From assembly GCA_016795505.1 (NCBI GenBank), contig JAEUHH010000052.1:1-64000 (forward strand): a stretch of 64,000 bases of DNA. Direction: 5' to 3'. Below, piece after piece: positions 17,455 through 29,924 of the stretch; the stretch's first letter is position 1, and every line of letters starts with the position of its first letter. Origin of the DNA: Verrucomicrobiales bacterium (lineage in GTDB: Bacteria > Verrucomicrobiota > Verrucomicrobiia > Verrucomicrobiales > DEV007). The translations under genes and the position numbers were made by a program. Below the pieces are notes generated by a model, which saw only the letters and a list, made by a program, of their open reading frames with translations, was not told the origin of the DNA and did no database searches.

Positions 17455-19950
17455 TTACCGCACCGGGCTCTTACCTTGAGTGATGGCTTTCAGAGACGCG
17501 TTGTTCGTCCCATCGAGACGGACACGTCGCAGACGCAACGCATTGGCGATGACGGAAACCGATGACAGTGACATCGCGGCGCCGGCGATCATGGGACTGA
17601 GCAAGGTTTCCGTCACTGGGTAAAGAATGCCCGCCGCGACTGGAATCCCGAGAGCATTGTAGATGAAGGCGAAAAAGAGATTCTGGCGGATGTTCCGCAT
17701 CACCGAGCGGCTGATTTCCACGGCCCGGGCGATCCCGGCGAGATCCCCTTTCACGAGGGTGATCCCCGCGCTCTCGATGGCGACGTCCGTGCCGGTTCCC
17801 ATCGCGATGCCGACATGGGCTTCCGCCAAGGCCGGCGCGTCGTTGATGCCATCTCCGGCCATCGCGACGATGCGCCCCTGGTTCTTCAATTCCCGGACGA
17901 GGAGAATCTTGTCTTCCGGGCTGAGTCCCGCACGGATCTCATCGATTCCAAGGGTTTTGCCGACGGCCGCTCCGGTCCGCGGGTTGTCTCCCGTGGCCAT
18001 GATCACACGGATGCCGCGACGGTGCAGGGCGGCGATGGCGGCGGGAGTCGATTCCTTGATCGGGTCGGAAATCCCGAGCAGGCCGAGAATCCGGTCTTCC
18101 TCGGCGAACCATACGACGGTCTGCGCGAGTCCTTCAAGCCGTTCCGCCTCGGTGGCGAGATCGTCCGGGATCACGATCCCCAGGGCGCGAAGAAAGGCCT
18201 CTTTGCCGATGCACAGGCGACGTCCCTTGATTAAACCGGAGACCCCGCCGCCGGTGGTGGATTCGAAATCCTCGACCTCGGGAAGCACGAGTCCCGCCTC
18301 CCTGGCTTCATCGACGATGGCGCGGGCGAGAGGATGCTCGGACCCGGTTTCCAGAGCGGCGGCACGCGCGAGCATGTCGTCGGCGTCCTCACCCGCCGCG
18401 GCCATACGGGCGGTGAGTCGCGGTTTGCCGGCGGTGAGGGTGCCCGTCTTGTCGGTGATGAGGGTGTCGATCTCTCCGGCGGTCTCGATCGCTTCGGCAT
18501 TCTTGATGAGGATGCCCGACTGAGCCGCACGTCCCACGCCGACCATGATGGACATCGGGGTGGCGAGGCCCAAGGCGCACGGACAGGCGATGATGAGCAC
18601 GGCGACGGCATTGACGAGGGCGAAGGCGAGAGCCGGATCCGGTCCCCAGAGGGCCCAGATAACGAAGGTCACGAGGGCGATGACGACGACCGCCGGAACG
18701 AAATAGCCCGACACGGAATCCGCGAGTTTCTGGATGGGGGCACGGCTGCGTTGCGCCTCGGCCACCATGTGGACGATCCGGGAAAGAAGCGTGTCACCGC
18801 CCACTTTTTCGGCGCGCATGAGAAAAGCGCCCGTCTGGTTGATCGTGGCGCCGATGACTAGATCGCCCTCCGCCTTCGCGACCGGGACCGGTTCGCCCGT
18901 GATCATCGACTCGTCGATGTGGCTTCTTCCAGAGGTGATGACGCCATCGATCGGAATCTTCTCTCCTGGTCGCACCCGAAGAATGTCGCCGATCTGCAAA
19001 TGATCGATCGGCACCTGCTCCTCCCGGCCCTCCCTGACGCGGTGGGCGGTTTTCGCGGCGAGTCCGAGAAGCGCCTGGATCGCCTGCCCGGTCCGGCTGC
19101 GGGCCTTGGCCTCGAGAAGTTGCCCGAGAAGGACGAGCACGGTGATGACCGCGGCCGCTTCGAAATACAATCCGACCTCCCCATGATGGACGAAGGAGTC
19201 CGGGAAAATTCCCGGGGCGATCACAGCGACGGCGCTGAAGAGATAGGCCGCGCCGACGCCCACGCCGATTAGGGTGAACATGTTTGGACTGCGGTGGACG
19301 AGGGATCGCCAGGCCTTCGCGAAAAAGGCGCCGCCGGCCCAGATCACCACCGGAGTCGCGAGAACCAACTCGATCCACTTGGAGACGGAGCGGGGCACGA
19401 TCTGGTGCAAACCCCACGAAGAAATCATGCCGCCCATCGCGAGCAGCAAGACAGGGAGGGTCAGAACGAGTCCGATCCAGAATTTGCGGGAAAGATCGCG
19501 GATCTCACGGGCCTGATGATCATCGTCTTCATCGACCGGCACCTTTGGTTCCAGCGCCATGCCGCAGATGGGGCAATCACCGGGATGGTCCTGCTCGATC
19601 TCGGGGTGCATCGGACAGGTGTAAACGATGCCGTGAGCGGGCCTCCAGGCCGGACTTCGCTCTAGCGCCATGCCGCACTGGGGGCAATCGCCGGGAATCT
19701 CGGATTCGACGCCGGGGCACATCGGGCAGAAGTACTTGCCCGCCCGAGATGGCGGGATCGCCCGGTCCCCGGCGTGGTCACGATGATTCGGCGTGTGGTC
19801 GTGATCGTGTCCGGCATGGATGTGGGAACAGCCGGTGCGACCGCTTTCCGGGGTGGTCGGGGACGAGTCGGGGGGACTGGGGACGGTCGACACTTCCGGG
19901 TTCATGTGGGTGTGGTTTGATTCGGGTGGATGGGGATGATGGTCTTTCAT
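17455..19950 (-). CDS. Copper-type P1B ATPase with two heavy-metal-binding domains
   Basis: The ATG at 19950 (MKDHHPHPP) is preferred; a TTG at 19992 would add 14 residues. 831 residues. After a His-rich N-terminus come two HMBD modules, [20 protein letters not shown] and [20 protein letters not shown], in place of the usual CxxC ferredoxin-like domain. Core motifs: [11 protein letters not shown] (Cu/Ag-selective CPC), [30 protein letters not shown]. It should export Cu(I) or Ag(I) across the inner membrane. It is divergent from a Cys-tailed ECF sigma gene and stands close to the nos operon. Confidence 0.92.
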
Positions 19951-20084: not shown

Positions 20085-20651
20085 ATGGAAGGCATCGAAG
20101 AGGCGATCGTGAAAAACCTGCGGCTCTTCATCGGATTCACCCGGAAACGGGTGGGCGACGAGGGCCTTGCCGAGGATCTGGTGCAGGATGCCCTCGTCAA
20201 GGCGCTCGCGGCACCCCAAAAACCGGAGACCGAGGAGGACACGGTGACTTGGTTCTACCGCATCCTCCGTCACGCCATCATCGACCTTTACCGGCGCAAT
20301 GATTCGCGCAGGCGGGCGCTGGAGCGATTTTCCCTGGAAGTGCCCGAACAACCGGATGTAATTGAAGGGGGATTTCTCTGCGAGTGCTTCCGGCGGCTCC
20401 TCCCTTCGCTGCCGCACCAATACCGGGATCTCCTCGAAAGAATCGACCTCGCCGGCGAAGACCCGGGCTTCGTCGCCGCGCAATCCGGTTTGACGCGAAA
20501 CAACCTGAACGTCCGTCTCCATCGGGCCCGCAAGCACCTACGCGGGATCCTTTCCGCGAACTGCCGGGCCTGCAGCAAACACGGATGCCTGAACTGCACG
20601 TGTGAGGAAACTCATTCGAGAGACGGACACGGTTCCGGTGGGGCGACTTGA
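20085..20651 (+). CDS. ECF sigma factor with Cys-rich C-terminus (CorE-like)
   Basis: 188 residues from ATG 20085. Sigma region 2 (GLAEDLVQDALVKALAAP, TWFYRILRHAIIDLYRRND) and region 4 (PHQYRDLLERIDLAG, GLTRNNLNVRLHRARKHLRG) are clear. The C-terminal tail is CRACSKHGCLNCTC, five cysteines in 14 residues. A Cys-rich tail is how CorE-type (ECF44) sigma factors sense copper directly, without an anti-sigma factor. The divergent neighbour is a copper-type ATPase, as CorE of Myxococcus controls one. Direct copper sensing is inferred, not shown. Confidence 0.82.
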   Translation: MEGIEEAIVKNLRLFIGFTRKRVGDEGLAEDLVQDALVKALAAPQKPETEEDTVTWFYRILRHAIIDLYRRNDSRRRALERFSLEVPEQPDVIEGGFLCECFRRLLPSLPHQYRDLLERIDLAGEDPGFVAAQSGLTRNNLNVRLHRARKHLRGILSANCRACSKHGCLNCTCEETHSRDGHGSGGAT

Positions 20652-20963: not shown

Positions 20964-21077
20964 GATGCGTTTCGGATGATGGTTTGAACTGTGTTGAGCA
21001 GCCCCACACGGGGCCTTCGAAGAGTGCAACGCCGCTCCACTTCACATCCCTCCAAAAAAATTGGGGTCTTCCAGACC

Positions 21078-21671
21078 TCAGTATCCGGCTTTGGCGAGGG
21101 CCTCGCGGAGGGTCTGGCGAGCCTTGTAAACTCGGACCTCCACTGCCTTCGCGGTGCAACCCAGAGCCGCCGCGACCTCTGCCTGACTCATGCCTTCGAG
21201 GGTGAAGAGGAGCAGGGCTTCACGCTGGTCGTCGGGTAGTTCGCCGATCGCGCGGTTCACCAAAGTGGTCCGTTCACGAAGATCCGCCCTTTCGTCCGGT
21301 GACGCGGTGGAATCGACCGCTTCGTGGCGGATCACCCCGCTTTCGTCCTCCATCGGAACCGTGGGATGACGCTTCCGCCAACGGGCCTGGGTTCGGGCAA
21401 GATTGGCCGCGATGTGGAACAGGTAGGTCGAAAAGGCGGCGGTCGGCTTGTAGTTCCTCCGGCTCTGGTAGAGACGGACAAAAGTTTCCTGGGCCAGATC
21501 CATCGCCGTGGCGTGATCCCCGACCATACGGAGGAGGAAGGCGGCGACACGCTCCCGCCAGCGGGAGATCAACTCATTGAGCGCGAGGTCTTCGCCCCCG
21601 GCGAGACGGAGCATCAGCGCAATGTCAGTGTCCTGGCCCGGTTCCATGCGAGGATGGGAATCAGTGGCCAC
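21078..21671 (-). CDS. ECF sigma factor (CnrH-like position)
   Basis: 197 residues if the GTG at 21671 is used (11-base overlap with the preceding gene); an ATG at 21647 (MEPGQDTDIAL) is an alternative. Region 2: ELISRWRERVAAFLLRMVGD, TAMDLAQETFVRLYQ, FSTYLFHIAANLARTQARWR. Region 4: ELPDDQREALLLFTLEGMSQ and EVRVYKARQTLREALAKAG. Last gene of a three-gene unit whose order matches cnrY-cnrX-cnrH of Cupriavidus, so it is probably held by the membrane anti-sigma factor and released by the periplasmic sensor. Confidence 0.9.
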   Translation of the reverse strand: MATDSHPRMEPGQDTDIALMLRLAGGEDLALNELISRWRERVAAFLLRMVGDHATAMDLAQETFVRLYQSRRNYKPTAAFSTYLFHIAANLARTQARWRKRHPTVPMEDESGVIRHEAVDSTASPDERADLRERTTLVNRAIGELPDDQREALLLFTLEGMSQAEVAAALGCTAKAVEVRVYKARQTLREALAKAGY

Positions 21672-22146
21672 GGTGGTGGTGAGTCGGTTCAGACGTCATC
21701 TCCAGCACCGCGGGAAGCATCGACTCGAGATAGGCGTCCGCCTTTTCCGGCGGGAGGGCACCCGCGGTCACATAGAGATGGCGCAACATGGCCACCTGGC
21801 ATTCCGCGCGCAGGGTAGCCTCCTCACGCAGGGCGCTTTCCAGCTCCGGGGTGATGGAACTCCCCTCAATAACGAGCGCCCGTAACCTTCCCCGGGCTGC
21901 AGCAATCTTTTCGCAAAGCGCCTCGCAGGTGGGGAGATAGGCGAGGTGCAGGGACGAGACTCGTTCGAACTCGGTTTCACTGAGGTCGAACTCTCGCCGC
22001 AGCCATTCAAGTTCGGGAAAGTGGGCTCCGGCCTGGTGAGGCATGCCGCCATGTACGGTTCGCGGGACCGGAAGGGACCGGGAAGACAGAAACCCGATCA
22101 CCGCCAGAAGGATCGATCCGGCGAGGACAACGAGGCCGCGTTTCAT
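21661..22146 (-). CDS. Periplasmic heavy-metal sensor, CnrX/ZraP/Spy type
   Basis: Start at ATG 22146, overlapping the anti-sigma gene stop (ATGA). 161 residues: one N-terminal membrane anchor (MKRGLVVLAGSILLAVIGFL), then a long helical hairpin with HFPELEWLRREFDLSETEFE, YLPTCEALCEKIAAARG and a His-rich end (PTHHHRGH). This is the layout of CnrX-type periplasmic sensors (heavy-metal resistance family PF13801) that relay Co/Ni or other metals to an anti-sigma factor. Which metal is bound cannot be read from the sequence; Met and His are both available. Confidence 0.78.
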   Translation of the reverse strand: MKRGLVVLAGSILLAVIGFLSSRSLPVPRTVHGGMPHQAGAHFPELEWLRREFDLSETEFERVSSLHLAYLPTCEALCEKIAAARGRLRALVIEGSSITPELESALREEATLRAECQVAMLRHLYVTAGALPPEKADAYLESMLPAVLEMTSEPTHHHRGH

Positions 22147-22463
22147 TCGCCAAGGGAGTCGAAGCGCGGGGCCAGCGGATTGATCGAGACGAGATACGCA
22201 TCGCGTGAGGCGGCCCGGCTTTCCCGATCCGGAACTCCCCGACCAAGTCCCGCTCCGAGGAGAAGCATGATCACAGCGGTTGCAAACGCGGGTGCCGGTC
22301 GCGAAAGGAAGGCAAGCGCAGACTCCAACCAAGCCACGGGGACGCTCTTTCCCTCGTGTCCGGCGCTGGCGATACGGGCCCAGATCTCCCGCTGAAAGGA
22401 GGTTTCAAACTCTGGCTTCGGCGTGGACTGCCGAATCAGTTGATCGAGTTCAAAATCATTCAT
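22143..22463 (-). CDS. Membrane anti-sigma-like protein (CnrY-like position)
   Basis: 106 residues from ATG 22463 (MNDFELDQLIRQ). The N-terminal 58 residues are soluble and helical (FETSFQREIWARIAS), followed by one membrane segment (PAFATAVIMLLLGAGLG) and a short periplasmic tail (DAYLVSINPLAPRFD). This topology matches single-span anti-sigma factors. The gene is first in the unit with the sensor and sigma genes, both overlapping, so the functional call rests largely on context. Confidence 0.65.
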   Translation of the reverse strand: MNDFELDQLIRQSTPKPEFETSFQREIWARIASAGHEGKSVPVAWLESALAFLSRPAPAFATAVIMLLLGAGLGRGVPDRESRAASRDAYLVSINPLAPRFDSLGE

Positions 22464-22824: not shown

Positions 22825-23441
22825 GGGATCTTCGATGGATGTGGTTTGTTTGAGTTTGGACTTTGATTTGTCCTTCATCGCGTCGAACGCCACTTTCGCG
22901 AGAATCCCTCCAGTTTTCCTTAAAACGTTTCGTATTGGATGGGCCGCAGATTACGGCGGACCTTGGATCACGGAGACCGAAGGGGCGGTCGCAGCGATAG
23001 GCAACCGACAACTGGCCCAAGGAGAATGGGAGGAACGCAAAGCTCTGGCAAGGCTTCGAGGTTCAAGCGCCGCCGCCACGGTGCGCTTGGCGTGGATGCT
23101 TCTGGAAAAACTCCCACATCAGGTCGTTCGCCGAGATGTTCTTCGTGGATTCTGAGATCAGTGGCCATGGTCGAGCGGGAATTCTAGCGGCAACGAAGGC
23201 TTTCGCCAGGCAGCGTTCTTCCGCATGCGGGTGAAAGGATCGACACCCCTACTGGGTCCGTTCAGCCGATGACCTGGCAATCAGCCACCACATCCATGTA
23301 AGAGGATGCAGTAAAGTCCTTCTGAATGGGCCGCCGCCACGGATGGGGGTATGCCGTATTTTCACTGATCAAGCCACGGGAACAGGATGCCGGGTCCTCG
23401 TGCCGGGGCGAAGGCGCTCAGTTTTTCGGCCTTTGTCGATC
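22825..23441. other. 617-base gap before the giant surface protein
   Basis: Contains the promoter of the Cys-rich peptide gene on the minus strand, then no recognisable gene. Short ORFs on the plus strand show no family pattern. The region ends in the 3' end of the giant minus-strand gene. Confidence 0.45.
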
Positions 23442-26400
23442 TCAGAACACAAATCCTCCCGTCTCGTCGCTGCCGGTGCCGGAGCCTTTGGTTCCGACGA
23501 TGCTGGTCAGCGGGACGGTGGTGTTGGTATCGGCCTTGAAGTAAATGCCATGCCCGGCCGCTCCCCCGCCGCCAAAACCGGTGATGCTGCTGCCCGTGCC
23601 CCCATTGAGGACGGTCCCAAGGGCCGCATAAACACCGGTGTTCAGTGTCCCGCTGGTCAGGGAATCGGCCGTGCCGAGCAGCACCAGCGATCCGCCCGCG
23701 TTCAGCGTCGCCGGGTAGAGATACAGACCGTGATTGTATTTCGTGCCGCGCCCGCCGGTGCCGGTCAGAAAGATGCCTCCGCCAGCGGTCATCGAACTGC
23801 CTTTCACGGTGATGCCGGTGTTGCCCGTTTCCGTACCGGTCACGGAGCCTCGGCCGGTCACGTCGATGTTGCCGCCGGTCGCGGTGACGGTGGCTTTGTT
23901 GAAGAGCACCCCGACGTTGTTCTTTCCAGTGCCCCGCGCGGTGCCCTCGATCACAATGTCGCCGCTGGCGGTATTCAACTGGGTCTCGGCGCCGATGATG
24001 ACGCCACTGTTGCCACCGCCACTGCCAGCGGGCGCCTCGCCGATCAGCTCGATGCCACCGGTGCCGGCCACGGTGATGCCGGATTTCGTCAATTGGATGC
24101 CCGCATTCTTGTCCAAGGTGCCGCCGCCGGTCCCGTGGAGGGTGACCGATCCGCTGCCGCCAGTGCCGGTGATCTCCAGTGTGGTGCTGGACAGTTTGAG
24201 GCCGAGATTGCCGCCACCCGCTCCCGTGGCGGTGGCGACGCCGGTCAGGATCAGACTGCCGTTCACGGCGCTGACAGTGCTCTTGTTCAGGGACAGGCCG
24301 AGGGACTTGGTCGTTTCCGAGCCCGTGCCGGTCAGGGTCACACTCCCGGCTCCGGTGGTGGACACGGTCGAGGAGACGAGGCTCAGGCCGGTGTTGTTTT
24401 TGGCCCCGCTGCCGGCGGTGCCGGTGATGAGCAGGGTGCCGCCGTTGCTGGACGCGACCTTGGCCTTGTTCAATACCACCCCGATGTTCTTGTCGCCGTT
24501 GTCGCCGCCGGAGCCGTGGATGGTCAGGTTGCCGGACTCGGTCCGGACGAAACCGCTGATGATGACGCCCCGATTCCCCTTGGTGCCATCCGGAGCGGTG
24601 CCCTGTATCTGGATCGCGCCCCCGCCGCGGGCTTGAAGGCTGGCCGCGCCCGTCAGCTTGATGCCGTTGGCATTTTGTCCGCTCGCGGATGAGGTGCCGG
24701 CGAGGGTGATGAGGCCGCCCCCTCCACCCGCGTGTTGACGGATCTGGGTACCGCCGGTCAGGAAGATACCGTTGCCATTGGAGACCGAGCCACTGGCTCC
24801 TGTGCCGGTCAGGGTGATGTTGCCGGTAGCGACCTCGAGCGTGCTCTTGGTCAGGTAAATGCCATCGTTGCCATCGCCCGTGTTGCCGCTGGTGCCGCGC
24901 AGGGTGATGTCGCCGGAGCCGGTCGCTTTCAGGGTGTTGCCGCTCAGCTTGATGCCGTCGAACTGACCCGCGCCGCCGGTGGCCTCCAGCAGGATGGAGC
25001 CCGTGCCGCCGACAGTGAGGGCGCCGCCCTTGGCGCCCTCGATGCGCTCAGAGACGAGGGAGGCGTCGTGATCATCGGCCAGAGTCAGAGCACCCTTGAG
25101 GACCGTCCGGTCAAAGCCCGCGCCATCAATGACCCGCAGCCCACCCGGCAGGATGCCCAGCACGCCGGAGAAAGTGACCGTGTCGTCGCCGCCGCGCAGA
25201 TCGATGATCACATCGCCGGACCAGGTGCCCCATTCGACGCGCACCTCGTGTTGCTTGAGTTCCAGCGCGCCGGGGATCACCGTGCCGACGGTGTTGGTCT
25301 TGTCGAGAATGGAGAGGTAGTCGATCAGGGTGTCCGGGTCCGTGACCCGCTTGATCACCACGTTGTCCGCCGTGGAGCCGCCGAGGATATCGCGGATGAC
25401 GAGGTTGCCGGCGTTGTCGATGAGGACGGCCGTGGTGGCGTGGGTGAGAGGTTCGTTGATCCAGACCCGGTTGGGTTGGTTGTTGTTACCTTCAACAAGA
25501 TCAAGGGCGCCATCGTTGTCCAAGTCGCCTAGGGCAAGATTGTCCGTAAATGAATTGCCGATGGATTGACCGTTGTCCGCGAAGACCCCAAAGCCATCGT
25601 TCAGCCAAACCCGATTTGGATTACCAAAGCCGCCTGCGACGACATCTAGGTCTCCATCAGCATCCAAATCCCCAAGGATCAGGACTTCGGAGTTGCTCCC
25701 CAAGGTCTGGCCGGAGTCCACAAACGTACCGTTCCCGTCATTGATCCAAACGCGATTCGCCTGATTTCGATTCCCTTCCACCAAGTCCAGATCACCATCA
25801 CCATCCAGGTCCCCGAGTGCGATGCTGGCGGTCGCATTACTACCCAGAGATTGGCCGCTGTTCGTGAAACTCCCCACGCCATTGTTCAGCCAGACCCGAT
25901 TGCCTTGGTTGAAGTTGCCCTCGACCATGTCTAGATCACCATCGCCGTCCACATCGCCCAGCGCGATGCTTTCCGTGAGAGCGGCGGCGATCATTTGCGA
26001 TCCTTTGCCAAAAATACCCGAGCCATTATTGAACCAAGCGAAGTTGGGCCCGTTATAATTGCCTTCGACGAGGTCGAGATCTCCATCATTGTCCAAGTCG
26101 CCTAGCGCAATCGCCCCGGTACTTAGGTTCTCCAACAATTGCCCACTGTCGGTAAAATTACCGAGACCGTCATTCATCCAGACCCGATTGGGCTGGGTAA
26201 ATCCACCCGGATTAGCTCCATTCGCTTCGACATAGTCTAGATCCCCATCACCGTCGAGATCGCCGAGGGCGATCATCCAAGTTCCATGAGAGCCCAGCGA
26301 TTGACCACTGTTCGTAAACCTGCCCGCGCCGTCATTAATCCATACAAGATTTGTCTGCCCGTTATTTCCTTCCACGATATCCAGATCACCATCCCCATCC

Positions 26401-28856
26401 ACATCACCCAAGGCCACGCTGCGGGTGGCGTGATTCCCCAGCGCCTGCCCGCTGTCCGAGAAAATCCCCGTCCCACCCGTCGCGGCCAGCACCACGATGT
26501 CACTATCGGCATCCGCGTTGTTGGATGGGTTGGAATCAATGACGCCACTCGGCGTCTGCACCCGGGCGGTGTTGGTCACGATGCTCTGTGCGGCCAGGTT
26601 CGCCGTGCCGGCATCGACCACGGTGGCCGTCACGGTGTAGATGACCGAGCCGAGACTCGGCACCGTCACCAGTTCGTCGATGGCGCCGGCGCCGCTGGCG
26701 CTGCCCGCGGCGCCGGGGGTGAAGGCCGCCATCCACGTTACCCCGGTGAGCAGGTCGGAGAAGGTGTCCGTGACCCGCGCGCCGGTCACGGCGGAAGGAC
26801 CGTAGTTGGTGACGTTAATCGTGTAGGTCACCACGCCACCTTGCTGGACTTGCACAACGGGCGAACTCTTGACAATGGAGAGATCGGTCGATGGATAGGT
26901 GTAAACCCGGACTTGGCCAGCGTCCGAGCCATTGGCGTCATTGAAAGGTGCCCCGACGGCAAGCGTGCTGCCGTTGGCAGCCAAGGCGACCGACCAACCC
27001 AGTTGGTCGCCTGCTGCTACTCCAACCAGATCTGTGCCACGCTGAACCCACGCCGTGCCGTTCCAACCAAACACCCTAACTTGACCTGAGTCGGTGCCAT
27101 TTCCTTCATTGAATGCTTCGCCGATAGCAAGCGTATTGCCATCAGTGGAAAGGGCGATTGAGAAGCCAGACAAACCGGTCAAGTCCGGTGCCGGTTCACC
27201 CTCGATGTCAGAGCCCCTCTGGACCCAGGCAGTGCCACTCCAAACAAAAACCCTGACATGACCGGTATCGAGTCCATTGCCGTCGTTCAGCGGCCCCCCG
27301 ACGGCGAGGATGTTGCCATCCTTCGAAAGGGCCACCGAATAGCCCGAGTGGTCCAGGGCGGCCTCTCCATCGATATCAGTTCCTCGTTGGATCCATGCAG
27401 ATCCATTCCAATCAAATACACGGGCATGGCCCGAGTCAGTGCCACCACCATCATTCAATCGGGCCCCTATCGCGATGGTATTACCATTGCCGGAAAGGGC
27501 GATGGATTGACCGAAGTTGTCTCCGGCCCCTTCGCCGTTGATATCGACGCCTCGCTGGACCCAGGAAGAGCCATTCCAAGTAAACACTCTGGCATGGCCT
27601 GAATCAGAACCATTTCCGTCATTGAGGGGAGCGCTGACTGCCAAAGTATTTCCATCGTCCGAAAGAGCCGTGTGGTAGCCGAATCGATCGCCTGCGGCTT
27701 CGCCGTTCAAATCGGCACCGCGCTGAACCCAGGTCGTGCCATTCCAGACAAAGACGCGAGCGTGTCCGGAGTCCGAGCCACCCCCATCATTACGTGAGGC
27801 ACCAATGGCAAGGGTGTTGCCGTCAGCTGAGAGGGCGACGGAGAATCCGGACAGATCTCCGCCGGCTTCGCCGTTGATATCGGTGCCCCTCTGTACCCAG
27901 GCTGCCCCATTCCAGGCATACACACGGACATGACCCGAGTCTGTGCCGTTACCATCATTGCCCAAAGCACCGATTGCGAGAATGCTGCCATCAGTAGATA
28001 AAGCAATGGAACGAGTGAACGATCCGGACTGATCTCCAACCGCCTCCCCGTTGATTGCGCTGCCCTTCTGCGTCCAATCGGGGTCGAGGAACGCATCACC
28101 CATCACCGAGCCCGGCGTCGCCCCGAGCGCATGGTATTCGACCGGCAGGCGGCGCAGGCCGGTGGCCAGGGAGCCACCCATCACATCGGCGCGGACCCCG
28201 GCGAGGTCGCCGAGACCGAGGACATGCCCCTGCTCATGGAGCAGGGTCGACAGCAGATCAAAACGCCCATCCGCCGTCCCGCCTGGCGCGGCTCTGAGCA
28301 AAGCGGATTGGGTGGGGGCAAATTCCTCATCCAGCAACGGCGTCGCATCGACGAACCACGCGCCCGATCCCGCCGCGTCGTCGTCGATCGTGATGGTCAG
28401 TCCATTGGCCCGGCCCAAGTGGACACCCAGATCCGCAATCTCGTAGGTCACCGACTCCAGAGCCGCCAGTTGATCGACCGAAAGGCCCGACTCGATCCAA
28501 CGCTGCTTTGCTGCCTGGGCGACGGCGGCGAGGGTCTCGGCATTCAGGTGCCCCCCACTCGGCACCAGGTTGACCGGGGTGGGACCGCTCGCGGCGGAAG
28601 ATACCTGCCCCCCGGCACTGGCGCCGCCGCTGGCACCGGCCGCTGTCGTCGCATCGGTCCCAGGCGCGGCCTCGGGCTGGGTGTCGGCGGCCTCCGCGTC
28701 CGGCGCCTCGACCGGCGCTGCGGAGAAAAGCACCCGGGGCTCCAACGCCTCGATCTGGGGACGGGCCGCCGGCAGCGGGGCCAGCGAACCGGCGGGAGTA
28801 ACGGTCGAGCCGTCGGCGGAGAGGTGGGAGAGGAGGTGGCGAACAAGCGTTTTCAT
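23442..28856 (-). CDS. Giant mosaic surface protein: LEPR leader, metalloprotease motif, FG-GAP and DUF11 repeats
   Basis: 1804 residues from ATG 28856 (MKTLVRHLLSHL). Near residues 36-48, IEALEPRVLFSAA is the LEPR-type export leader common in this phylum. HEQGHVLGLGD (about residues 224-234) is a zinc-metalloprotease HExxHxxGxxD motif. Then come about eight FG-GAP-type repeats (LAIGASRNDGGGSDSGHARV, AWVQRG), one DUF11 domain (QQGGVVTYTINVTNYGPSAV), about seven VCBS/FG-GAP repeats (LGDLDGDGDLDLVEGN, with DGDGD calcium loops), and a C-terminal beta-helix of about 600 residues (ASGSVSNGNGIFLTGGTQIR). It is likely secreted or cell-surface exposed. Whether the protease part is active is unknown. 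Confidence 0.85.
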   Translation of the reverse strand: MKTLVRHLLSHLSADGSTVTPAGSLAPLPAARPQIEALEPRVLFSAAPVEAPDAEAADTQPEAAPGTDATTAAGASGGASAGGQVSSAASGPTPVNLVPSGGHLNAETLAAVAQAAKQRWIESGLSVDQLAALESVTYEIADLGVHLGRANGLTITIDDDAAGSGAWFVDATPLLDEEFAPTQSALLRAAPGGTADGRFDLLSTLLHEQGHVLGLGDLAGVRADVMGGSLATGLRRLPVEYHALGATPGSVMGDAFLDPDWTQKGSAINGEAVGDQSGSFTRSIALSTDGSILAIGALGNDGNGTDSGHVRVYAWNGAAWVQRGTDINGEAGGDLSGFSVALSADGNTLAIGASRNDGGGSDSGHARVFVWNGTTWVQRGADLNGEAAGDRFGYHTALSDDGNTLAVSAPLNDGNGSDSGHARVFTWNGSSWVQRGVDINGEGAGDNFGQSIALSGNGNTIAIGARLNDGGGTDSGHARVFDWNGSAWIQRGTDIDGEAALDHSGYSVALSKDGNILAVGGPLNDGNGLDTGHVRVFVWSGTAWVQRGSDIEGEPAPDLTGLSGFSIALSTDGNTLAIGEAFNEGNGTDSGQVRVFGWNGTAWVQRGTDLVGVAAGDQLGWSVALAANGSTLAVGAPFNDANGSDAGQVRVYTYPSTDLSIVKSSPVVQVQQGGVVTYTINVTNYGPSAVTGARVTDTFSDLLTGVTWMAAFTPGAAGSASGAGAIDELVTVPSLGSVIYTVTATVVDAGTANLAAQSIVTNTARVQTPSGVIDSNPSNNADADSDIVVLAATGGTGIFSDSGQALGNHATRSVALGDVDGDGDLDIVEGNNGQTNLVWINDGAGRFTNSGQSLGSHGTWMIALGDLDGDGDLDYVEANGANPGGFTQPNRVWMNDGLGNFTDSGQLLENLSTGAIALGDLDNDGDLDLVEGNYNGPNFAWFNNGSGIFGKGSQMIAAALTESIALGDVDGDGDLDMVEGNFNQGNRVWLNNGVGSFTNSGQSLGSNATASIALGDLDGDGDLDLVEGNRNQANRVWINDGNGTFVDSGQTLGSNSEVLILGDLDADGDLDVVAGGFGNPNRVWLNDGFGVFADNGQSIGNSFTDNLALGDLDNDGALDLVEGNNNQPNRVWINEPLTHATTAVLIDNAGNLVIRDILGGSTADNVVIKRVTDPDTLIDYLSILDKTNTVGTVIPGALELKQHEVRVEWGTWSGDVIIDLRGGDDTVTFSGVLGILPGGLRVIDGAGFDRTVLKGALTLADDHDASLVSERIEGAKGGALTVGGTGSILLEATGGAGQFDGIKLSGNTLKATGSGDITLRGTSGNTGDGNDGIYLTKSTLEVATGNITLTGTGASGSVSNGNGIFLTGGTQIRQHAGGGGGLITLAGTSSASGQNANGIKLTGAASLQARGGGAIQIQGTAPDGTKGNRGVIISGFVRTESGNLTIHGSGGDNGDKNIGVVLNKAKVASSNGGTLLITGTAGSGAKNNTGLSLVSSTVSTTGAGSVTLTGTGSETTKSLGLSLNKSTVSAVNGSLILTGVATATGAGGGNLGLKLSSTTLEITGTGGSGSVTLHGTGGGTLDKNAGIQLTKSGITVAGTGGIELIGEAPAGSGGGNSGVIIGAETQLNTASGDIVIEGTARGTGKNNVGVLFNKATVTATGGNIDVTGRGSVTGTETGNTGITVKGSSMTAGGGIFLTGTGGRGTKYNHGLYLYPATLNAGGSLVLLGTADSLTSGTLNTGVYAALGTVLNGGTGSSITGFGGGGAAGHGIYFKADTNTTVPLTSIVGTKGSGTGSDETGGFVF

Positions 28857-29924
28857 CGGTTCCAAGGATTCGTAGGGTTTTCGGCAGGATGGATGACCCA
28901 TCCGGTCACCAGCCCAGCGTCAGCCGAGCGACCCATCTTTGTGAAAACGGTCAGATTTGCAATAAAAAACTTAATTGGAAGACGGGACCTTTCCGGCAGT
29001 CGGGTGGCGCACGCCAAGCCCGTCGCCACAGGGCCGGTCGGGTCGGGTGGGTAGCACCCGATGGCTGAAACAGGGTTAGGGATTTCCCTATTAGCTTCCT
29101 TCCAGAGCCAAGGAGAGAGCTGACTCCATCGTCTTTACTTCCGCAGCCCTCCGTAGCCACCGAGGTCGTTTCCGTAGCCACGGAAATCCTTTCCGGAGTC
29201 TCGACGAAGGGAGGGATTTCAGCTTTGGTTCATCGATTGTGAATAATCTGTGAAAAAATGTCTGTTTGGACGGTTCCGGAGGCAGCGGTCGAGGGGTGGG
29301 AGAGAGAACCCTGTCACCGCTCCGATCAAACAGGGTCTGATCCGCGGGAATCCGAGGGCGGGAGGGGGCCAAACCCTCCCCCGGCATCCCTGCTCCCCGG
29401 TCACGAAGCTCAGGTCACTCCGGCGTTGGTGCCATAACCCAGCGGAAGTGGATTCATTTTTTTTCGACCAGTTATTTGAGAAAGGGTTGGCCTCCGAAAC
29501 CCGGCGAGCAAAGAGCGAATCGAATGGATTGCCGCGTCGGCTCCGCCGCGCCCTTTATCCTCAGGTTGATCGACGCCCCCTTCATTTCCCGGCCTCCACT
29601 AATGGCCCATCGTGGGGCCCCACAGTAAACAGCCCGGTTACCCTGCCACCTCCGGCCAGTGTCGCATACAGCCCGGTCATCAAACATTGCTCAGAAATCG
29701 CCCTCCGCGTGAAGTTTACTACCAAAAACACCCCGCACCCCCGGTTTGCACCCTGCGGAGGTGCCTCTTCCAGTCGGTGAGCCGGACGATCTTCGGCGGG
29801 GTTTGGGCCAGTGCGGAGGTTGCAGAGGACGGGCAGTGCCCTTTGGCATGGCGGAGCCAAAGTGGGAGATGTCACTGCACAACCGCGCGCTTGACAATGA
29901 TGGTTGCCGTGATGCCTTTGGTTC
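28857..29924. other. 1068-base gap with one dispersed repeat
   Basis: No credible gene. It holds the presumed promoter of the giant gene near 28900-28980 and the dispersed repeat copy at 29307-29350. The short overlapping ORFs have no recognisable pattern. Confidence 0.5.
29307..29350 (+). repeat. Dispersed repeat copy, intergenic
   Basis: Reads AACCCTGTCACCGCTCCGAT then CAAACAGGGT and CTGATCCGCGGGAA, matching the copy inside nosZ and those at 51637 and 62427. Here the outer ACCCTGT and inner ACAGGGT form an inverted repeat. Confidence 0.7.

Follow-up and report, generated by a model that had tools for sequence, protein, structure and literature searches.

A CnrYXH-like ECF sigma switch with a cysteine-bearing sensor, probably responsive to copper, in a Verrucomicrobiales bacterium

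Introduction

The three-part CnrYXH switch is known mainly from Cupriavidus, where it serves cobalt and nickel. Three overlapping genes in the same order are found in a 64,000-nucleotide stretch of Verrucomicrobiales DNA (GenBank assembly GCA_016795505.1, contig JAEUHH010000052.1, positions 1 to 64,000; hereafter the window), which raises the question of whether these genes form a switch of the same kind and, if so, which signal the switch would read. An initial annotation, made from the letters alone, had proposed a cobalt/nickel-type operon in a PVC bacterium; the host was placed correctly, its nearest named relatives being Verrucomicrobiales/Akkermansiaceae, and belongs to a phylum in which metal regulation has been little studied.

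Layout and conservation of the operon

Five small genes run on the minus strand from 22824 to 20736, coding in turn for a Cys peptide, an anti-sigma candidate, a sensor, an ECF sigma factor and a YHS protein. These genes and the features around them are listed below in window coordinates.

22886..22910, minus strand: promoter P1, predicted to be sigma-dependent; GAGGGAT-N12-GGCGTT, ~60 bp upstream of the Cys-peptide start codon
22543..22824, minus strand: exported peptide, first gene; 93 aa with 14 Cys; metal-buffer candidate
22143..22463, minus strand: anti-sigma candidate; 106 aa, one hydrophobic span (transmembrane helix); without a Pfam or PDB match
21661..22146, minus strand: sensor of the CnrX/NccX (Metal_resist) family; 161 aa, membrane-anchored and predicted to be periplasmic; H67, C74, C78, C116 and H123
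21078..21671, minus strand: ECF sigma factor; 197 aa, GTG start
21028..21052, minus strand: promoter P2, predicted to be sigma-dependent; ~65 bp upstream of the YHS start codon
20736..20963, minus strand: exported YHS/TRASH-type metal-binding protein; 75 aa (PF04945, 1.9e-7); predicted target
20085..20651, plus strand: second ECF sigma factor, P0005, CorE-type; C-terminal C-x2-C-x7-C-x-C tail; in the island, outside the operon
17455..19935, minus strand: copper-type P1B ATPase with two heavy-metal-binding (HMBD) stretches (TIGR01511); in the island

The minus-strand segment 22463-21078 is confirmed as a genuine three-gene signalling switch. The overlaps amount to 4 nt between the anti-sigma and sensor genes and 11 nt between the sensor and sigma genes, and both the overlaps and the order anti-sigma, sensor, sigma match cnrYXH on pMOL28, so that this part of the original proposal was borne out, with the order kept across the sampled loci. 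The operon is better drawn as four genes that begin with the Cys peptide; a second promoter of sigma type stands ahead of the YHS gene. Compared with the sister species (L036, which shares a contig with the UBA5020 locus L005), the dN/dS values are ~0.23 for the anti-sigma candidate, ~0.19 for the sensor, ~0.13 for the sigma factor and ~0.18 for the Cys peptide; all four operon genes are thus under purifying selection, with dN/dS well below 1.

The gene order is not due to chance, because it is repeated in a paralogous operon on contig 32 of the same genome (L002/L038), Cys-containing first peptide included, and in 60 related loci sampled outside the window, one of which (L094) is of a different type. 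Among these 60 loci, the anti-sigma candidate lies directly upstream of the sensor in 59, usually with a 4-nt ATGA overlap, and the sigma gene directly downstream in 56; the loci in which either partner is missing are contig ends. Moreover, a Cys-containing exported peptide occupies the place of the first gene in most close relatives. The sensor is present in 106 of 387 genomes of the order (E<=1e-5), and a phylum-wide search matched 63 of 388 genomes; in 20 loci sampled from these matches, the anti-sigma profile again matches the neighboring small protein, though weakly in L149 and L151. Among the phylum-level relatives, L147, L148 and L150 are arranged differently; the sigma gene of L147 and L148 stands upstream of the sensor, unlike the order in the window, and the sensors of L147 and L150 carry a CCALHC motif. 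A literature search of limited coverage found no copper YXH system in Verrucomicrobia, and the operon appears to represent a separate, widespread, copper-associated and apparently undescribed branch.

The sensor and its ligand set

The best PDB matches of the sensor are NccX and CnrX, both as a single sequence (1.6e-4 and 2e-3) and as a profile (~1e-7 and ~1e-6), which upholds its assignment to the CnrX family. Against Metal_resist (PF13801), the sensor scores 27.8 bits, just below the gathering cut-off of 29.2, but with a limit of E = 0.1 every one of 21 sampled sensors is matched by the family. Unlike Metal_resist sensors at large, they form a defined sub-branch with three Cys and two His whose three-gene operon and promoter are both fixed. 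The predicted structure of the soluble part has four helices (44-53, 57-94, 100-129 and 133-151), in a model built on three similar sequences with a mean pLDDT of 71 and 80-90 in the core.

The metal ligands are where the sensor departs from CnrX. The CnrX residues H42, H46, E63, H119 and M123 align with L46, R50, H67, H123 and T127, so that a single ligand of the five is kept (H119, as H123) and the signaling methionine is lost; Met123 of CnrX is needed for cobalt/nickel signaling (PMC7689651). Three cysteines are near-invariant among 60 aligned sensors, namely C74 (59/60), C78 (59/60) and C116 (54/60), together with H67 (58/60) and H123 (59/60). The cysteines persist further than the histidines: of the 15 class- and phylum-level relatives L132-L146, 13 have all three Cys and 9 have both His; the distant matches L149 and L151 are without the Cys and have an E/H pair as in CnrX. 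The pair H67/H123 is the equivalent of CnrX E63/H119 and shares its antiparallel register with C74/C116 (67+123 = 74+116 = 190), so that the three-Cys cluster would most naturally lie two helical turns from the old CnrX site. The His tail noted in the initial annotation exists in the window, where the sensor ends in HHHRGH, but it is not conserved as such, most relatives ending in a single His.

The matches of 12 of the 21 sensors to LTXXQ (Spy/CpxP-type) could suggest that the middle gene is a mere Spy-like periplasmic metal chaperone with no control over the sigma factor, the anti-sigma protein sensing something else. This is very unlikely in view of the CnrX-like membrane anchor, the position of the gene between anti-sigma candidate and sigma factor, and the metal-type residues, which are among the most conserved of the sensor.

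The anti-sigma candidate

The 106-residue protein carries a conserved signature consisting of MNDxELDxLLR, FxREVWxRI, one span preceded by a conserved Pro, and a periplasmic AYxxSINP. No relative was found in Pfam, NCBIfam or the PDB, and no homology to CnrY or to any solved anti-sigma factor was detectable by HMMER, hhalign or PDB profile search; the hhalign probability against CnrY (class II) is 0.9%, with a short W-containing match and similar topology only. The description as a single-span anti-sigma-like protein therefore holds as far as the one span and the place upstream of the sensor are concerned, whereas homology to CnrY was not found. The predicted model is weak (mean pLDDT 62), and binding between the sigma factor and this protein is something that we infer. 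The locus supplies a candidate anti-sigma family that is without a Pfam model.

Sigma factors and a CnrX-like third locus

The product of 21078..21671 has regions 2 and 4 only, a domain content that supports its identification as an ECF sigma factor, and it is homologous to CnrH. A third locus in the same genome (L003/L094, on G000 contig 56 at ~70.6-70.9 kb) was considered as a distant paralog of the operon in the window; that assignment was rejected, the locus being of the CnrX-like type. The five CnrX ligands are all present in its sensor, upstream of which an 89-aa one-span protein is encoded, and no RND or copper gene was found within 7 kb. In the sigma tree, the L094 sigma factor groups with CnrH (SH-aLRT 91), whereas that of the window does not, the CnrH branch being very long. 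With the five ligands of L094, and its CnrH-grouping sigma factor, to which the long branches of the tree give modest weight, the phylum therefore holds both sensor types, CnrX-like and Cys, and the operon in the window is of the Cys type.

These data bear directly on the reading as a true CnrYXH-type cobalt/nickel switch. The gene order and overlaps of cnrYXH, the homology of sensor and sigma factor to CnrX and CnrH, and the counterpart of CnrX H119 in H123 are all in keeping with it. Nevertheless, H42, H46, E63 and M123 are replaced here, a separate locus of the same genome keeps the five ligands along with a sigma factor that groups with CnrH (subject to the same long branches), and the main neighbors of the operon are copper genes; a cobalt/nickel switch is very unlikely, and the original metal assignment was abandoned on account of the replaced ligands, the three conserved Cys and the copper neighborhood.

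The divergent sigma factor P0005 lies 0.4 kb from the operon and is transcribed away from the copper ATPase. Its tail, C-x2-C-x7-C-x-C, is located in a C-terminal extension and equals the four invariant cysteines of CorE (181/184/192/194; PMC3107203), and two CorE-type copper sigma factors were already known in Verrucomicrobia (PMC3107203). CorE of Myxococcus xanthus, like the sigma factor at 21671-21078, is an ECF sigma factor linked to copper genes, and P0005 shares its Cys pattern; unlike CorE, which senses copper in the cytoplasm without a partner, the operon's sigma factor is without a Cys tail and is encoded next to an anti-sigma candidate and a periplasmic sensor. The island contains two distinct sigma systems of copper type. 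A 47% relative of P0005 is found near the corresponding operon in L044.

Copper neighborhood

At least one copper-type gene lies near the sensor (within ~7 kb) in 54 of 61 loci, as against 1 of 20 control regions. By gene, the same 61 loci and distance give 40 with YHS, 26 with a P1B ATPase match, 18 with a CopA-type multicopper oxidase match and 23 with a CusA/CzcA-like RND pump; loose relatives are counted among the ATPase and RND matches. The ATPase in the window scores 602 bits against TIGR01511 (copper-translocating P-type ATPase; cut-off 397), and no RND match occurs within ~8 kb of the operon. These copper neighbors, together with the CorE-type Cys pattern of the divergent ECF sigma factor, make copper the best guess for the effector metal.

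Two further readings retain the circuit and change its signal. A three-Cys site also suits Ag, Hg, Cd, Pb and As ions, and Cus-type pumps, which are found in several loci, export silver too; an effector of this thiophilic group is nonetheless unlikely, in that the copper-type P1B ATPase, the multicopper oxidase and the CorE-type sigma factor all indicate copper. Similarly, the CxxxC motif and the third Cys of a periplasmic protein could form disulfides in response to redox or thiol stress, against which Cys-rich exported peptides would also act as buffers, but such non-metal sensing is improbable, given the two conserved His beside the Cys, the metal-sensing fold family and neighbors that are consistently copper ATPase, multicopper oxidase, YHS and RND genes.

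Compared with CnrYXH/NccYXH of Cupriavidus metallidurans, the system resembles its model in the order of anti-sigma, sensor and sigma, in the overlapping genes, in the membrane-anchored, periplasmic, helical CnrX-family sensor, in the ECF sigma factor and in the link to metal resistance. It differs in the four changed ligands of five, the lost Met123 and the three Cys gained, in an anti-sigma protein not detectably related to CnrY, in the extra first gene for the Cys peptide, in the copper neighborhood, in a sigma factor that, on a tree with a very long CnrH branch, is not the one closest to CnrH among those of the genome, and in the adjacent RND efflux operon, for which the window gives no match within ~8 kb, although the paralogous L038 does have an RND set. 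On these sequence comparisons, the system may be filed as a copper-associated variant of the CnrYXH design with a different ligand set.

Promoter motif and predicted regulon

A shared promoter motif, whose absence the initial annotation had named as counting against its proposal, was searched for and found. Expectation-maximization without a seed, run on the 250 bp after 57 sigma genes, returned gAGGGnTT, a spacer and CGGaGTTgcaC with a log-likelihood of 563 (115-127 for shuffled sequences). The resulting matrix, untrained on upstream DNA, places a site ahead of the operon at 41 of 60 loci and behind the sigma gene at 40 of 57. Altogether, 111 matrix sites occur in 770 kb, where chance would give ~1; the operon strand carries 102 of the 111, and 290 kb of control DNA taken from these genomes has no site. 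The de novo promoter, GAGGGRT-N11-YGGMGTTGCA, stands ahead of the Cys peptide (or the anti-sigma gene) and ahead of the YHS gene, with start codons typically 40-65 bp downstream of the sites. The genes behind the sites code for Cys peptides, YHS proteins, Cys lipoproteins, multicopper oxidases and Cys-containing exported peptides, and the anti-sigma gene itself follows a site where the Cys peptide is missing. P1 (22886-22910) scores 11.7, slightly below the threshold of 12. These predicted sites favor the earlier suggestion that the Cys peptide is the first gene and a direct target.

A looser pattern, SGVGTT, was rejected, since its 7 genome matches compare with 5 in the control; because it was too loose, a tighter core was used together with the position matrix. 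In the whole 6.5 Mb genome there are 4 copies of the core GAGGGRT-N12-GGMGTT, two at the operon in the window and two at its paralog. Across the 387 genomes, the strict pattern has 44 matches (2 for the reversed pattern), 40 of them near a sensor gene, and 21 of the 23 genomes that bear it have the sensor (p ~5e-11); it is nearly confined to genomes with the operon. Of the four matches away from a sensor, two stand ahead of a YHS gene and a 12-Cys homologue of the peptide in the window. As the strict matches lie mostly beside sensor genes, the regulon seems to be small and for the most part local. No such motif precedes the CopA ATPase in the window, for which reason the ATPase may answer to the CorE-type factor instead. 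Several divergent relatives (e.g., L065, L074, L080 and L092) are without a recognizable motif or copper neighbor.

Proposed mechanism and its significance

The reading preferred here, at a probability of roughly 0.7, is a transmembrane ECF-sigma switch of CnrYXH architecture specialized for a thiophilic metal, most likely copper. In the metal-free state, the one-helix anti-sigma protein would hold the sigma factor at the membrane through its conserved N-terminal helices, and its short periplasmic AYxxSINP tail would contact the sensor. Periplasmic copper would bind at the C74/C78/C116 site, with the H67/H123 pair nearby, and the copper-loaded sensor would pass a change across the membrane upon which the anti-sigma protein would release the sigma factor, a direction of switching that we infer. 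The released sigma factor would then recognize GAGGGRT-N11-YGGMGTT and transcribe its own operon, beginning with the Cys-rich exported peptide, as well as the exported YHS protein; the two exported proteins would subsequently bind metal and so buffer it. Its reach in relatives would extend to Cys lipoproteins, to multicopper oxidase and to a Cys peptide whose gene precedes a Cus/Czc-like pump.

A wider proposition is plausible but tentative: a CnrX-fold sensor rebuilt around three Cys (with two His), an undescribed anti-sigma family and a local regulon of Cys-rich exported peptides would operate beside a CorE-type cytoplasmic copper sigma factor, such that, with two sigma factors, one island reads copper both outside and inside the membrane. 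If true, the three-part CnrYXH design would have been retuned for a soft metal through a swap of its ligand set, with a bearing on how far periplasmic sensors can use cysteines where CnrX uses methionine. The predicted promoter is now directly testable, and small Cys-rich exported peptides that are otherwise without annotation have been brought out.

Additional observations

In L038 (G000 contig 32), what comes after the paralogous operon is first an exported peptide that contains Cys and has a promoter site to itself, then a TolC/CusB-like/CusA-CzcA set. No family name was found for this TolC-preceding peptide, for the Cys peptide or for the Cys lipoprotein (no Pfam/NCBIfam). The latter is a family of ~104 aa with 8-10 Cys (LVSCQAP...CxxC...CxxC), located behind a sigma-type promoter in L054, L055, L047, L071 and others, where its genes sit ~1.1 kb after the sensor start. 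Elsewhere in the window, the minus strand at 23442-28901 encodes a repeat protein of ~1800 residues with FG-GAP repeats, DUF11 and an N-terminal LEPRVLFSAAP motif.
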